A program made the translations under genes and the position numbers. DNA of 64,000 nucleotides. It comes from Chloroflexi bacterium bin125 (lineage in GTDB: Bacteria; Chloroflexota; Dehalococcoidia; Bin125). The stretch lies in NCBI GenBank assembly GCA_002239025.1, contig MPNM01000014.1, positions 1-64,000 on the forward strand. The letters run 5' to 3'. The notes beneath the pieces are model-generated. The model did not search any database. It was not told where the DNA came from and was given only the letters and a program-made list of their open reading frames with translations. Shown piece after piece: positions 18,178 to 31,185 of the stretch; positions within the stretch are counted from its first letter, which is position 1, and every line of letters begins with the position of its first letter.

Positions 18178-19176
18178 ATGAGACTTGGCATCCTGGCCGG
18201 ATTCGACGCCAACTGGCAGGACACATTGGAGAAGGTCAAGATCGCTGAGGACCTTGGCTACGAAATGATCTCCACCGGCGAGGCCTGGGGACACTCCGTG
18301 TTGCCCTGGCTTACAGTGATCGCCGCCAACACCGACAAGATCCAGATCGGCACGGGCATCCTCAACACCTTCTCGCGATCGCCCGGCGCCATTGCCCAGG
18401 AATTCGCGACGCTCGAGACGATCTCCGGCGGCCGCATGGTTTGCGGACTCGGCTCTTCGGGCAACCTGGTGATCGAGGGATTCCACGGCGTCGAGTTCGA
18501 TCGTCCGCTGCGCCGGATTCGCGAATACACCGAAATCATCAAAATGTTGCTCAGCGGTCAGCGGCTGCAATACGAAGGCGAGATCTACACGTTGCAGCGC
18601 GGATTCCGGCTGCTGGGATTTCAGCCCGTACGTGAAGACCTGCCAGTCTGGATCGCGGCGATCACGCCGCGCTCAATCCAGCAGACTGGTGAAATTGCCG
18701 ATGGCATCTACCCAATCCATTGGCCAAAGAAGTCGTTCGAGCCGCTCAAGCGCCAGCTTGCCGGCGCATCGCGCGACGCAGGCCGCCCGGAAGACTCCGT
18801 CACGATTGCACCCTTCACCAACGTCTACGTCACTGGCGAGGGTGACGACGAGTCGGTCTGGCGCAACGCTCGGCAGCCGCTCTTCCACTACACGAACCGG
18901 ATGGGCTCGTTCTACTGGCAGATGCTCTCCCGCTCCGGCTACGAGTCGGAGATCAAGGACTCACGCGCTGCCTGGGCCGACCGCGATTCCGAGGGCGCGC
19001 TGATGGCGTTCTCAGAGAACATGGTCCGCGAGATCCAGGTGATTGGATCGATTGAAGAGGTGCCGGATCTCCTGCAAGCGCGATCCGACGCCGGCGCCGA
19101 ACTGCAGATGGTTCCGCTGCCCCGGGGCACGACGGCTGAGGTCGGGCGTCGGCTCGAGCAGTACCTCGGTGGATAG
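18178..19176 (+). CDS. LLM class (luciferase-like) flavin/F420-dependent oxidoreductase
   Basis: This 332-residue TIM-barrel oxidoreductase is of the luciferase-like superfamily. It has the N-terminal strand MRLGILAGFD, the loop EAWGHSVLPWLTVIAANTDKIQIGTGILN (a characteristic T-x-x-I-x-x-G-T-x-I element), GGRMVCGLGSSGN (flavin phosphate loop), and PVWIAAITPRSIQQTGEIADG near the C-terminal barrel strands. Members use FMN or F420; which one cannot be decided here, although F420-using methylene-tetrahydromethanopterin-reductase-like members are common in Chloroflexota. It is the first gene of the run LLM - Rdx - UGSC selenoprotein - partner, with 21 bases to the next start. A role in delivering oxidised or reduced substrate to the selenoprotein is inferred only. 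Confidence 0.9.
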   Translation: MRLGILAGFDANWQDTLEKVKIAEDLGYEMISTGEAWGHSVLPWLTVIAANTDKIQIGTGILNTFSRSPGAIAQEFATLETISGGRMVCGLGSSGNLVIEGFHGVEFDRPLRRIREYTEIIKMLLSGQRLQYEGEIYTLQRGFRLLGFQPVREDLPVWIAAITPRSIQQTGEIADGIYPIHWPKKSFEPLKRQLAGASRDAGRPEDSVTIAPFTNVYVTGEGDDESVWRNARQPLFHYTNRMGSFYWQMLSRSGYESEIKDSRAAWADRDSEGALMAFSENMVREIQVIGSIEEVPDLLQARSDAGAELQMVPLPRGTTAEVGRRLEQYLGG

Positions 19177-19197: not shown

Positions 19198-19449
19198 ATG
19201 TCCGAGCAACAGATTGCAATCGAGGTCGTCTACTGCGCCGACTGCGGCTACTGGCCGCGGACGTCGTGGATGCTGGGCGAGTTGATGACCGACATCCAAC
19301 ACATGGTCTCCGACGTGAAACTGATTCCGGACACCAAAGGCCTCTTCGAGTGGAAGGTCAACGGAGAACTGGTCTTCAGCAAGGCTGCGATGGGCCGGTT
19401 CCCCGACATGGATGAGCTGCGCGAGATAATCTACGCCCATCTGGACTGA
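19198..19449 (+). CDS. Rdx family SelW/SelT/SelH-like thioredoxin-fold protein (Cys form)
   Basis: This 83-residue protein is of the SelW/SelT/SelH (Rdx) family. The redox loop directly follows strand one: IEVVYC13ADC16GYW. In SelW the second redox position is often selenocysteine; here both are cysteine codons. The later strand-turn GLFEWKVNGELVFSKAAMGRFPD matches the family's F-E-(V/I)-x-x-(N/D)-G-x-x-(I/V)-(F/W)-S-K motif, which makes assignment firm. Rdx proteins are small thiol reductases or bind glutathione/protein thiols. Its position 23 bases before a selenocysteine protein suggests that it is the electron donor or resolving partner. That pairing is inference. Confidence 0.9.
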   Translation: MSEQQIAIEVVYCADCGYWPRTSWMLGELMTDIQHMVSDVKLIPDTKGLFEWKVNGELVFSKAAMGRFPDMDELREIIYAHLD

Positions 19450-19472
19450 GCTGTTCGACGAGCAGGAGCAGA

Positions 19473-20033
19473 ATGATGGCTGAAACAATTGAAGTTCTGA
19501 GTCCGCTAGCTCATGTCGCCGTGCATGAGGCGACTCCTGCGCCGCGCCCACTATCTCTCGATGGCCTGCGGCCGGGCATCCTGGAGAACCGCAAAGCCAA
19601 CGCCCGTCTGTTGATGGAGACGATGGTTGAACGTCTTGGCGAACGGTTTGATCTGGGTGAGATGGTGGTCGGCAGCAAACCGGTCGGCGGACCGCCATCA
19701 GACTCGACGATTGACTCATTGCGCAACGGAGCCGACTTCCTCCTGATTGGGAGCTGCGATTGAGGAAGCTGCACGACGTGGAGTGTCCACGCCTCAGTCC
19801 TCTTCGAAGAGATGGGAATTCCCACCGTTACGGTGGGCACATCGGCCTTTACCGACCTGCTGCAACTGGAAGCCGAGCAGCGCGGTCTGCCCGAACTTGA
19901 CCGACTAATCGTGCCGCATCCGCTGGGCGGCCTCAGACCGGAACGCGTACGCGCCCGGATCGATGATGGCGTCCTTGATCGATTGGAAGCGGCGCTGCTC
20001 GGACAGGCGCCCAGTCAGGCGGCTGGATCGTGA
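19473..20033 (+). CDS. UGSC family selenoprotein (in-frame TGA = selenocysteine 97)
   Basis: The gene opens at ATG 19473 (AGGAG five bases upstream) and reads continuously to 20033 if the TGA at 19761-19763 is decoded as selenocysteine. This gives 186 residues with Sec97. Around the TGA the protein reads LLIGSCD-U-GSCTTWSVH, the defining U-G-S-C motif of the UGSC (seleno)protein family, whose non-Sec relatives have Cys there. Upstream and downstream parts share one frame, and the downstream segment (EEMGIPTVTVGTSAFTDLLQ, VPHPLGG) is clearly coding. A SECIS-type hairpin follows the TGA. Sec97 and Cys100 would make a selenenylsulfide redox pair; a further Cys is at 95 (SCDU). The true stop TGA (20031-20033) overlaps the GTG of the next gene. 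The biochemical function of the family is not known to me. Confidence 0.92.
19762..19795 (+). promoter_or_regulatory. Candidate bacterial SECIS element
   Basis: The mRNA just 3' of the Sec codon can fold into a perfect 6-bp stem CGTGGA (19777-19782)/TCCACG (19786-19791) with loop GTG. The loop starts 19 bases after the TGA and its first base is G. Both features meet the published bacterial SECIS rules (16-37 bases, G among the first two loop bases). A lower helix GAGG (19762-19765, including two bases of the TGA) with CCTC (19792-19795) can close beneath an 11-base one-sided bulge. SelB binding is inferred. Confidence 0.75.
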
Positions 20034-21088
20034 CGGCAGCACGCGGCCGAGAGGCTGAACGATTCACGCTGCCGTCCGATCCGTTTGATTTTTCACAGGA
20101 GTGCATCCGTCGCGGCTGGTCGGATGGACTGCCGCTTGTCCCGCCCACGACTGAGCGCGTTGCGGCGACGCTGGAGAGTACAGACCGCGACCCGCTCGAC
20201 GTGCTTGGCGTGCTTTCACCGCGTCAGGGCGAGGCGACGGTCCAGGGCATTGCGATCAATGCGGTGATGGCGGGCTGCAGGCCGCAGCAGTTTCCGATCG
20301 TGCTTGCTGCCGTCGAAGCGATATCCCAACCTCCATTCAATCTCGATGGGATCAATGCGACCACGCATCCCTGTGCTGTGTTCGTCCTGGCATCAGGACC
20401 CGCAGCTCGTTCGGCCGGCATTCATGGCGGATCGGGTTGCTTTGGCCCGACCTTTCCCTCCAACGCGACGATCGGGCGCGCCGTCCGATTGGTGCAACTG
20501 AATATCGCCGGCGCAACGCCGGGTCGCGGCGATCGAGCGACGCAAGGCACGCCAGCCAAGTTCGCGTTCTGCGCCACGGAGCGCGAAGATGCCTCGCCCT
20601 GGCCGCCGTTTCAATCCACCCGAGGGCTGAATGCGGAGGACAGTTGCGTCACGACCTGGGCCTGCGAGGGCCCGCACAACATCCAGGACCACGGCAGCAA
20701 CACGGCAGCCGGGATCTTGCAAACGGTCGCCGGCGCCATGGGACAGGCAGGATCGAACAACATCCTGGGCAAGGGCGAGCCGGTCCTGGCCTTTGGTCCT
20801 GAGCATGCCGAGACCGTCGCCTCGGAAGGCTGGACGCGAGAAGGCGTGCAGGAATACCTCTGGGAGAACGCTCGCTACCCGGCCAGCAAGCTGAGCGAGG
20901 AGTTCCTCGAGTCCGTCAACATCCGCATGGCCGGCGGCGTGTTACCGACCCACAGCTCCGACGAGTGGCTGCCAATCTCGGACAGGCCGGAGGAGATTCA
21001 CATCATCGTCGCCGGCGGTCCCGGCAAGCACTCCTGTTGGATGCCAACGTTTGGCGGCATGACTCGTCCGGTGACAGTGTCGCTGTAG
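20030..21088 (+). CDS. Conserved protein of unknown function, partner of the UGSC selenoprotein
   Basis: This 352-residue soluble protein has no domain I can name with confidence. Its GTG start overlaps the selenoprotein stop by four bases (GTGA), so the two are translationally coupled. The N-terminal half has DFSQECIRRGWSDGLPLVPPT and a segment rich in Gly/Pro (SPRQGEATVQGIAINAVMAGCRP). The middle has HGGSGCFGPTFPSNATIGRA and EDSCVTTWACEGPHNIQDH, with several Cys. The end has IHIIVAGGPGKHSCWMPTFG. The string SCVTTWAC resembles the GSCTTW of the selenoprotein, possibly by chance. There is no signal peptide and no membrane segment. A role as a catalytic partner is inferred from coupling alone. 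Confidence 0.8.
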   Translation: MTAARGREAERFTLPSDPFDFSQECIRRGWSDGLPLVPPTTERVAATLESTDRDPLDVLGVLSPRQGEATVQGIAINAVMAGCRPQQFPIVLAAVEAISQPPFNLDGINATTHPCAVFVLASGPAARSAGIHGGSGCFGPTFPSNATIGRAVRLVQLNIAGATPGRGDRATQGTPAKFAFCATEREDASPWPPFQSTRGLNAEDSCVTTWACEGPHNIQDHGSNTAAGILQTVAGAMGQAGSNNILGKGEPVLAFGPEHAETVASEGWTREGVQEYLWENARYPASKLSEEFLESVNIRMAGGVLPTHSSDEWLPISDRPEEIHIIVAGGPGKHSCWMPTFGGMTRPVTVSL

Positions 21089-21229: not shown

Positions 21230-22096
21230 TCATAATCCAAGCAGCGCACCGGGATTGTCGCGGCACATCGTCTGGATCTCGCCGGCGGTGAATCCCTCTT
21301 CGAGGAATCGGTCGATCCAGAGGGCGAAGCCGATCGGTGGGTCGGGATTTGCCGCTTGACCGAGGTCGGTGGCGAGAATGGTGTGCCCTGGACCGACCGC
21401 TCGGACCTGCTCCATGACTTGCGGTACTGCTGTGTCGGCGTCGCTGTGATAGCTAACGATCGCGCATTGCTCGAGGAATCCACCGAGTTCGGCGATGGAT
21501 CGTTGAGCGTCAATCGGCCACCAGAAACTGGCGTGTGTGATCACGCATTCGATTCCGCGCTCTCTGGCCGAAGTGACGAGCGGGATGCCTTCCTCGACAC
21601 TGACGTGTCCGGATGCCAACACCGCGTTGTGCTCGGCTATCAGGTCGAGGATGTCGTGAATGACGGGCAGCAGTTGTCCGGCATCGTCCAGCAACTGGAT
21701 GGGTTCTTGCGAGCTGAAGTACCGGCCCGGGCGATGAGAGCGCCAATGGACCGCGTCAAAGGTCGGCATCCAGACGACCTTCGTGCCCAGCTTGAGCGCG
21801 ATACGCAACGCCTCGGGATTGAGCCCTCCGACGCCGTGATCAAGGGCGATTCCGCCGAAGATGTCGAGCGCGGGGAAATCGTCCTTCAACGCCCAGGCAA
21901 TCGGTTGTGTGGGATATTCGTGACTTTTGAGAACGATCCCGGACATTCGACGCGTCTGTGCGGCCCTGGCGAGCTGCCGCGCGTCCATGCGACGTTCGGT
22001 GTACGGGTCGGGGCCGGCATGGACGTGGACATCGACCGCGCCTTCAAGCAGGGCCAGCGCGTGGTCCGAAGGCTGGATGGTTGCTGAGTCAGTCAC
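21230..22096 (-). CDS. DUF6282 family metal-dependent hydrolase-like protein
   Basis: This 288-residue protein is of the DUF6282 family, amidohydrolase-like TIM barrels. The metal-binding start is EGAVDVHVHAGPDPYTERR; further histidines lie in LKSHEYPT, DHGVGG, LASGHVSVEEG and VITHASFWWP, and an Asp in LATDLGQ. The open frame extends well upstream through low-quality sequence. The GTG at 22094-22096 overlaps the upstream nucleoside hydrolase stop by four bases (GTGA) and places the domain right at the N-terminus, so it is chosen. The coupling suggests joint action with the nucleoside hydrolase homologue, perhaps on a ribosyl- or ring-containing compound. Substrate unknown. Confidence 0.85.
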   Translation of the reverse strand: MTDSATIQPSDHALALLEGAVDVHVHAGPDPYTERRMDARQLARAAQTRRMSGIVLKSHEYPTQPIAWALKDDFPALDIFGGIALDHGVGGLNPEALRIALKLGTKVVWMPTFDAVHWRSHRPGRYFSSQEPIQLLDDAGQLLPVIHDILDLIAEHNAVLASGHVSVEEGIPLVTSARERGIECVITHASFWWPIDAQRSIAELGGFLEQCAIVSYHSDADTAVPQVMEQVRAVGPGHTILATDLGQAANPDPPIGFALWIDRFLEEGFTAGEIQTMCRDNPGALLGL

Positions 22097-23025
22097 GTCG
22101 CGAAACCAGCGCTTCTGGTCCCAGCGTGGAATTCGGCGAGCTTGGTGAATAGATCGTTGAAGATAGGGTCGCGTCGCACGTAGTGTGCCTCGGTGAACGG
22201 AGCATGCGGTGCATCGTCGGGAGGCACCGCCCAGGTCATGTCGTTGGTGAGCATCGGGCGGACCGTACTCCGGGTTTGCACCCAGGCTTCGGCGATCAGG
22301 TAGCCGATGGCGGAGAGGTCCCAAATCTCTTTGGAACGTCCCGGATATTGCTCGTTGTGATCGCGGAAGATGTCGCAGAGATACTCACCGATCGGTCCCT
22401 GCGGTCTGATATATGCGTCGAGTTCGGCGGTGCTCGTGAGCAAGTGCGAGGCAGCGCCGTAGCAGGGGATGTGGATGAGCGGCGCTCCGCTGTCGAACAC
22501 GGCTCGCGCAGCGATCGGATCCTGGTAGAGGTTGAACTCGCGGGCGTCGTCGCGATGCTGAGGCTGCCCGCCAAGCCAGACAATCACAATACGACGGGCG
22601 ATCTGCGGCGCGTCGTTCAGGGCTGACGCGACATTGGTCAATGCGCCAATGGCGGCGACAAAGAGTGGTCCGTCTCTGGGCTCCATGGCCCGCTGGATCA
22701 GGTCATCAGAGGCAGCATTCTTAACTGATGGATGGTCGTCGCTGAGGAATCGGTCTGCTCCGCGCATCACACGATTGCCGGGATCGACATTCAGGCGCTC
22801 CAACAGACGGTAAATCTCCGCTTCGGATTCGGTCACGCCTTCTGCCGGAGAATTGCCCTGACGCATGAAGAGTGTGGCGTAGATCGCTTCCAACTGCAGC
22901 CGGTCTTGCGAGAGCAACGCATGGACCACGGCGAACTGGTCGTCGATCTCGTTGGCGGTGTCGGTGTCGAGCACCATTGGGACGCGATTCGGCGGGGCGG
23001 GTGGACTCAAAACGTGATGCTGCAT
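22093..23025 (-). CDS. Nucleoside hydrolase (IunH-like) family protein
   Basis: This 310-residue protein is of the inosine-uridine nucleoside N-ribohydrolase family. The Asp-rich calcium-binding motif is VLDTDTANEIDDQFAVVHAL; the family consensus D-x-D-x-x-x-D-D is present with N for one position. Further signatures are AAIGALTNVASAL (calcium/ribose loop) and EFNLYQDPIAARAVF, which matches the E-F-N-x-x-x-D-P-x-A-A motif. It would cleave the N-glycosidic bond of nucleosides or related ribosides in the cytoplasm. It is coupled to the DUF6282 gene, so the true substrate may be something other than an ordinary nucleoside. Confidence 0.9.
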   Translation of the reverse strand: MQHHVLSPPAPPNRVPMVLDTDTANEIDDQFAVVHALLSQDRLQLEAIYATLFMRQGNSPAEGVTESEAEIYRLLERLNVDPGNRVMRGADRFLSDDHPSVKNAASDDLIQRAMEPRDGPLFVAAIGALTNVASALNDAPQIARRIVIVWLGGQPQHRDDAREFNLYQDPIAARAVFDSGAPLIHIPCYGAASHLLTSTAELDAYIRPQGPIGEYLCDIFRDHNEQYPGRSKEIWDLSAIGYLIAEAWVQTRSTVRPMLTNDMTWAVPPDDAPHAPFTEAHYVRRDPIFNDLFTKLAEFHAGTRSAGFAT

Positions 23026-29669: not shown

Positions 29670-29759
29670 TGGCGGAGGGGGAGGGATTCGAACCCCCGAG
29701 ACGCTTGCACGCCTAACGGTTTTCAAGACCGCCGCCTTCGTCCGCTCGGCCACCCCTCC
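29670..29759 (-). tRNA. tRNA-Ser (anticodon TGA)
   Basis: On the minus strand the sequence starts GGAGGGGTGGCCGAGCGG and ends CCCCTCC-G-CCA. The 7-bp acceptor stem is perfect, with discriminator G as expected for serine and the CCA encoded (29670-29672). The anticodon loop is CTTGAAA, giving anticodon TGA for UCN serine codons. A long variable arm (TTAGGCGTGCAAGCGTCT region) is typical of class II tRNAs. The T arm is GGGGGTTCGAATCCC. Confidence 0.97.
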
Positions 29760-31098: not shown

Positions 31099-31185
31099 TG
31101 GTACCGGGAGAGGGGCTCGAACCCACACGGCCGTGAGGCCAGCGGATTTTAAGTCCGCCGCGTCTGCCAATTCCGCCATCCCGGC
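31099..31185 (-). tRNA. tRNA-Leu (anticodon TAA)
   Basis: The minus strand starts GCCGGGATGGCGGAATTGG and ends CTCCCGGT-A-CCA, with the CCA encoded at 31099-31101. The anticodon loop is CTTAAAA, anticodon TAA. It has the long variable arm of class II tRNAs (TGGCCTCACGGCCG) and discriminator A, both diagnostic for leucine. The T arm is GTGGGTTCGAGCCC. Confidence 0.97.

Follow-up and report, generated by a model that had tools for sequence, protein, structure and literature searches.

A UGSC-family selenoprotein gene with an overlapping, conserved partner gene in a Chloroflexota bacterium and its kinship to the selenocysteine site of glycine and proline reductases

Gene content of the locus

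The window analysed here (the whole stretch of 64,000 nucleotides) contains a UGSC-family gene with a single internal TGA, which is preceded by the genes of an LLM-class oxidoreductase and a SelW/Rdx-family protein and followed by the genes of a partner protein and a DUF6282 protein (Table 1). Codons 1-96 of the UGSC gene occupy positions 19473-19760, the internal TGA is codon 97, and codons 98-186 extend to the final TGA at 20031-20033, the frame being otherwise open. With the internal TGA translated as selenocysteine (Sec, U), the sequence at this site reads ..GADFLLIGSCD-U-GSCTTWSVH... The first-pass annotation of this locus, made from the sequence alone, described two same-frame segments around a TGA, the motif SCD-U-GSCTTW, membership in the UGSC family and a coupled overlap with the next gene. 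Results of our analysis agree with this description in coordinates, frame, TGA and motif. The 3' end of the UGSC gene overlaps by four bases the GTG start of the next gene, and the Pfam model of the UGSC family, PF24696, aligns with residues 7-165, on both sides of the TGA (E 5.7e-40, 137.7 bits vs. a cut-off of 25).

Table 1. Features of the UGSC locus and their coordinates in the window
Feature	Coordinates	Strand	Details
LLM-class flavin/F420-dependent oxidoreductase	18178..19176	+	PF00296, E 2e-65; upstream, same strand
SelW/Rdx-family protein, Cys form (C-A-D-C)	19198..19449	+	PF10262, E 3.7e-18; TIGR02174 over cut-off
AGGAG, Shine-Dalgarno-like	19464..19468		before the UGSC gene start
UGSC-family selenoprotein gene	19473..20033	+	186 aa with Sec97; PF24696 match; predicted fold, pLDDT 94
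In-frame TGA, predicted Sec97 of U-G-S-C	19761..19763	+	all full-length homologues have Sec or Cys here
SECIS-like hairpin, CGUGG-AGUGU-CCACG	19777..19791	+	covariation and codon-preserving shuffles
Partner protein	20030..21088	+	352 aa; GTG start overlaps the UGSC gene end; without Pfam/NCBIfam model
DUF6282 protein (true start uncertain)	21230..22324	-	PF19799, E 2.3e-58; downstream, convergent

While the predicted protein shares with the UGSC family (PF24696/NF041046) the domain span, the U-G-S-C motif and the position of the Sec codon, it differs in its score with the NCBIfam equivalog model NF041046 (106.6 bits, E 1.1e-30), which is below the curated cut-off of 125 bits. By that model it is therefore a divergent member, and it is filed here under the Pfam family only. 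The host genome contains four UGSC genes with one TGA in each; judged from sequence, the full-length match combined with a TGA in all four copies is not a matter of chance. Elsewhere in the window, tRNA-Ser(UGA) and tRNA-Leu(UAA) genes are located on the minus strand (29670-29759 and 31099-31185).

Decoding of the in-frame UGA

The host genome (3.68 Mb, 96.7% complete) encodes a tRNA-Sec with the anticodon UCA (selC, 66.4 bits), SelB in a complete frame of 622 aa (328.3 bits), SelA (515.7 bits) and SelD (350.8 bits). Thus, all four genes that the first-pass annotation had proposed to look for, including the decisive selB and selC, are present. The SelD gene of this genome (L021, G000:C5:154737-155678; L numbers denote loci throughout) is itself a selenoprotein gene with one in-frame TGA.

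The UGSC family was found in 94 of 294 genomes of the same class, with one TGA in every match listed (about 160 listed). Among 84 full-length UGSC genes of many phyla, taken from 80 partner-bearing named loci and the window, 81 contain TGA and 3 a Cys codon. Across 121 full-length matches, a set in which a few UGSC genes of the host genome are counted twice, the site is U in 118 cases and C in three, so that the expectation of Sec or Cys at position 97 holds for all of them; homologues with a plain stop or a frameshift at this point and no conservation past it were not encountered. The three Cys forms are those of Natrialba asiatica (CGSC), L092 and L113 (both CGTS). The latter two (L092:5002-5481 and L113:735-1205) form a subgroup with the motif D-C-G-T-S-T-S, which is devoid of the second Cys and still adjoins a partner gene. 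A divergent UGSC relative with the motif GGUGCAGPQ (L108:13065-13556), followed by a divergent copy of the partner gene, possibly represents a separate subfamily.

In a survey of ten genomes, seven of which were picked for Sec-form UGSC, a full SelB scoring over the cut-off was found in all seven Sec-form genomes and was absent from the genomes of Natrialba (CGSC) and L113 (Cys). The genome of L092, which has one Sec and one Cys copy of UGSC, contains only fragments of SelB. This is the pattern expected of Sec/Cys exchange.

Bacterial SECIS elements are hairpins that shortly follow the UGA and have a G at the start of the apical loop. The hairpin downstream of codon 97 has its stem at +16 to +30 (U of UGA = 0), and its loop, AGUGU, begins 18 nt past the UGA; the loop and its covariation assign it to the SECIS-type hairpins with a loop-start G. 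Folding of the 45 nt after the UGA in 116 genes gave a mean z of -1.38 vs. codon-preserving shuffles, and the same test at five control offsets in these genes gave z from -0.06 to -0.30. Bases 20 and 26 can pair in 107 of 109 distinct sequences (G-C in 66, C-G in 41) and show the highest mutual information among all column pairs; the 109 sequences are kin by descent and the counts are thus not independent, but the switch between G-C and C-G is seen in several phyla. Codon 105 (Val in the window) ends in C in sequences that have TGG as codon 103, past the TT/TS (Trp in the window), and in G in those whose codon 103 ends in C (e.g., encodes Cys). Preservation of the predicted RNA pair while residue 103 varies is, as read from these alignments, compensatory change.

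In the standard code TGA breaks the frame, and the codon might be taken as a genuine stop or as the product of a sequencing error or pseudogene mutation, with the downstream half of the gene untranslated. Such readings are extremely improbable, and we regard them as ruled out by the covariation of the hairpin 3' of the UGA, by the retention of the TGA in many phyla and by the selection acting after it; the complete Sec machinery of the host also speaks against them. As compared with the closest relative, that of a Dehalococcoidia MAG (L053), pN/pS is 0.19/0.77 in the part before the TGA and 0.22/0.68 in the part that follows, which indicates that purifying selection on the protein persists beyond the TGA. 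The view of the first-pass annotation that a simple pseudogene is unlikely is thereby strengthened, and so is its proposal of Sec read-through, which gains support from the sel genes, the Sec/Cys conservation and the covarying SECIS-like hairpin. By this combined evidence, TGA97 is almost certainly decoded as Sec.

The partner protein

Pfam and NCBIfam profile searches with the product of the gene that overlaps the UGSC gene gave no match, and a sequence search against the PDB found no relative. Its predicted model has a pLDDT of 94. The best Foldseek match of this model, class I fumarate hydratase (TM 0.2, E 8e-4), and the best match obtained with VIA (Z 5.6) were both too weak to be used. 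Comparison of the partner and UGSC profiles revealed no similarity, and the pair is therefore not a recognisable duplication. The partner has two cysteines, Cys83 and Cys181, whose conservation among 92 members is at least 90%.

At least 550 relatives of the partner are encoded in named genomes, and at the loci of the best 80 of them, distributed across phyla, UGSC is present in 74 cases. In the host genome, all four UGSC genes have a member of the partner family next to them, and at UGSC-anchored loci a partner is located within 1.5 kb of UGSC in 23 of 30. For six of the seven partnerless loci wider stretches were searched, and the partner was not found there either. Because these seven loci have no partner nearby, not every UGSC requires one. 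Natural fusions in one frame occur in both orders, namely, UGSC-partner in L171 and partner-UGSC in L170. The conserved linkage and the fusions indicate that UGSC and the product of its overlapping gene very probably form one complex.

Predicted fold of UGSC and its kinship with GrdB and PrdB

In the predicted UGSC model (pLDDT 94), strands and helices alternate in a domain of the Rossmann/CheY-like type, and Sec97 is placed between strand 89-95 and helix 98-113. The structural matches found with VIA are generic Rossmann/CheY-like ones (Z about 8 to 10.5), including response-regulator receivers, and a family assignment based on them was set aside for this reason. A sequence search of UGSC against solved structures gave no direct link. 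Passages of the 2008 GOS survey (PMC2398784) describe UGSC-containing selenoproteins and suggest a thioredoxin-like fold for them. The predicted fold argues against that suggestion; no thioredoxin fold is among the structural matches listed for UGSC, although such a fold could be present without a match.

Profile-profile comparison with hhalign aligned UGSC with the Sec domain of protein B (GrdB, PF07355) of glycine/sarcosine/betaine reductase, Sec on Sec (probability 96.2, score 63), and with PrdB-like proteins, relatives of the Sec subunit of D-proline reductase (probability 78%, score 40). After masking of the four motif columns the scores were still 39 (GrdB) and 41 (PrdB-like), while the highest scores reached were about 20 for 60 column shuffles and 20.2 for five unrelated families. 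UGSC and GrdB also have in common a ..GIPT.. strand that follows the helix after Sec and, close to the C-terminus, a motif of the PHP(L)G (IPHPLG) type. By profile comparison, the UGSC domain is thus a homologue of the Sec domain found in GrdB and PrdB. The homology with GrdB spans about 70-80 residues around Sec and leaves the substrate-binding N-terminal domain of GrdB outside. It is apparent at the profile-profile level only, as none of 77 UGSC proteins was matched by PF07355 with E values up to 10 allowed.

A Chloroflexota GrdB (L136) carries the UGSC motif itself. What distinguishes GrdB is its large N-terminal domain, absent from UGSC, and the company it keeps, as the UGSC partner is not GrdE. 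PrdB resembles UGSC in being small, in its UxxC motif and in working beside a second subunit, which is PrdA, but it has UPxC where UGSC has UGSC, and its similarity to UGSC is weaker than that of GrdB. The GrdE-type pyruvoyl subunit that accompanies the Sec subunit in glycine reductase was not found beside UGSC: GrdE (PF09338) had no match in the host genome, and comparison of the partner with GrdE by hhalign (0.1%) showed no relation. Therefore, the pyruvoyl/Schiff-base chemistry of glycine reductase need not apply here. The host genome also encodes a PrdB-like protein with the motif U-P-F-C and an in-frame TGA (L149:1255-1854, G000:C19) and four more PF07355 matches; its PrdB-like Sec-domain proteins are not accompanied by a GrdE-type gene and are apparently stand-alone relatives of PrdB.

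Neighbouring genes

The SelW/Rdx protein encoded directly upstream of UGSC in the window is a candidate electron donor for UGSC. A SelW gene also adjoins UGSC in L054, L055 and L049/L050/L052 and is located about 1.7 kb off in L053. A thioredoxin-like CxxC domain is fused to the partner or adjoins it in L017, L042, L044, L046, L047 and L051, and a thioredoxin reductase (TrxR)-like flavoprotein is encoded directly upstream of UGSC in L070, L083 and L094. The partner copy of L017 (5222-6898) has its thioredoxin-like domain (C-D-T-C) at the N-terminus, in the same frame.

Redox neighbours of these kinds, together with the UxxC motif and its second Cys, which is conserved in at least 90% of cases, would be in line with a general thiol oxidoreductase or peroxidase, whose UxxC would cycle between the selenolate and Se-S forms and reduce peroxides or protein disulfides; the passages of PMC2398784 that suggest a thioredoxin-like fold likewise put UGSC among redox motifs. 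We consider this function unlikely, as the confident UGSC model and the structural matches listed for it are of the Rossmann/CheY-like class, the kinship to GrdB and PrdB, enzymes of carbon substrates, survives motif masking, and the Cys forms of L092 and L113 lack the second Cys. In addition, a large conserved partner and catabolic neighbourhoods would be unusual for a general reductant.

The catabolic character of the neighbourhoods is apparent from 69 TctC-type carboxylate-binding proteins encoded across 30 UGSC/partner loci and from genes of CoA transferases, acyl-CoA dehydrogenases, enoyl-CoA hydratases and LLM oxidoreductases, although some of these cluster families were named from their sequences rather than by profile. 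The TctC-type, CoA-linked and dehydrogenase neighbours suggest carboxylic acid catabolism. A DUF6282 gene is located beside UGSC or the partner also in L023/L163, L035, L038, L043 and L078, and in Natrialba it is immediately downstream of the partner; its product may act in the same pathway as UGSC. The number of UGSC paralogues reaches 11 per genome in the class-wide matches.

That UGSC and its partner handle selenium or sulfur, or serve as sensors (e.g., with the CheY-like domain as a redox sensor), instead of turning over a substrate could be proposed on the ground that the nearest folds of UGSC include response-regulator receivers and that the partner belongs to no recognised catalytic family. 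It appears improbable, since a CheY-like fold match is common to many functions, and since numerous paralogues with changing catabolic neighbours are a better fit to substrate-specific enzymes, as are the many TctC-type proteins and the CoA-linked and dehydrogenase genes.

Proposed function and its significance

Our best guess, by analogy with GrdB and PrdB, is that UGSC and its partner would be a two-subunit, Sec-dependent reductase breaking a polar bond between carbon and a heteroatom in a small carboxylate. As genome content and covariation suggest, ribosomes would insert Sec at UGA97 by means of SelB, tRNA-Sec and the short SECIS-like hairpin, and the UGSC protein would work with the product of 20030-21088 as one complex, in accordance with the linkage and fusions. 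The selenolate of Sec97 would then attack the polarised carbon of a small carboxylate and break its bond with the heteroatom, and the selenium intermediate would be freed by formation of Se-S with Cys100 or with a cysteine of the partner. Restoration of the selenolate might be carried out by a donor of the SelW, thioredoxin or thioredoxin reductase type, a proposal that the SelW, thioredoxin-like and TrxR-like neighbours fit. A related attack, by Sec of a GrdB-like protein on a C-F bond, is proposed in a passage of PMC10838667.

Reductive bond cleavage by UGSC, as suggested by this analogy, falls in our estimation a little short of an even chance. Judged by lineage, the carriers of UGSC are presumably mostly aerobic, unlike the classical Stickland organisms, which counts against a GrdB-type function. 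As to the explanation as a whole, which joins a genuine UGSC selenoprotein, a complex with the partner, cleavage of a carbon-heteroatom bond in the manner of GrdB and PrdB, and re-reduction by a thiol donor, we find it evenly poised between right and wrong.

The first-pass annotation regarded the protein as a candidate new redox enzyme. The function of the family is indeed still not established, but the family itself has been known since 2008 (PMC2398784) and has Pfam and NCBIfam models; it is named again, with no function given in the passages concerned, in reviews of 2022 and 2026 (PMC9312934, PMC13188914). With no established function of the family, no functional comparison is possible. According to a passage of the 2008 survey, a protein designated 'Unknown_1' is fused to UGSC (Supplementary figure S1 of PMC2398784). 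The searched passages of open papers describe neither a link to the partner nor a kinship with GrdB. What appears to be new is the linkage and fusion of UGSC with its partner and the kinship to the Sec site of glycine and proline reductases, and not the selenoprotein family.

Tentatively, UGSC and its partner may represent a widespread, so far undescribed class of two-subunit selenoenzymes that is kin to glycine and proline reductases and has a second subunit whose fold is not recognised. By means of substrate-specific paralogues, such enzymes would reductively cleave carbon-heteroatom bonds of carboxylates from the environment in soil, freshwater and marine bacteria that are largely aerobic. 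Given the linked or fused partner and the homology to GrdB and PrdB, the 'unknown UxxC protein' becomes a concrete question for biochemistry: with a conserved partner and a Sec site kin to those of glycine and proline reductases, the function of UGSC is now testable.
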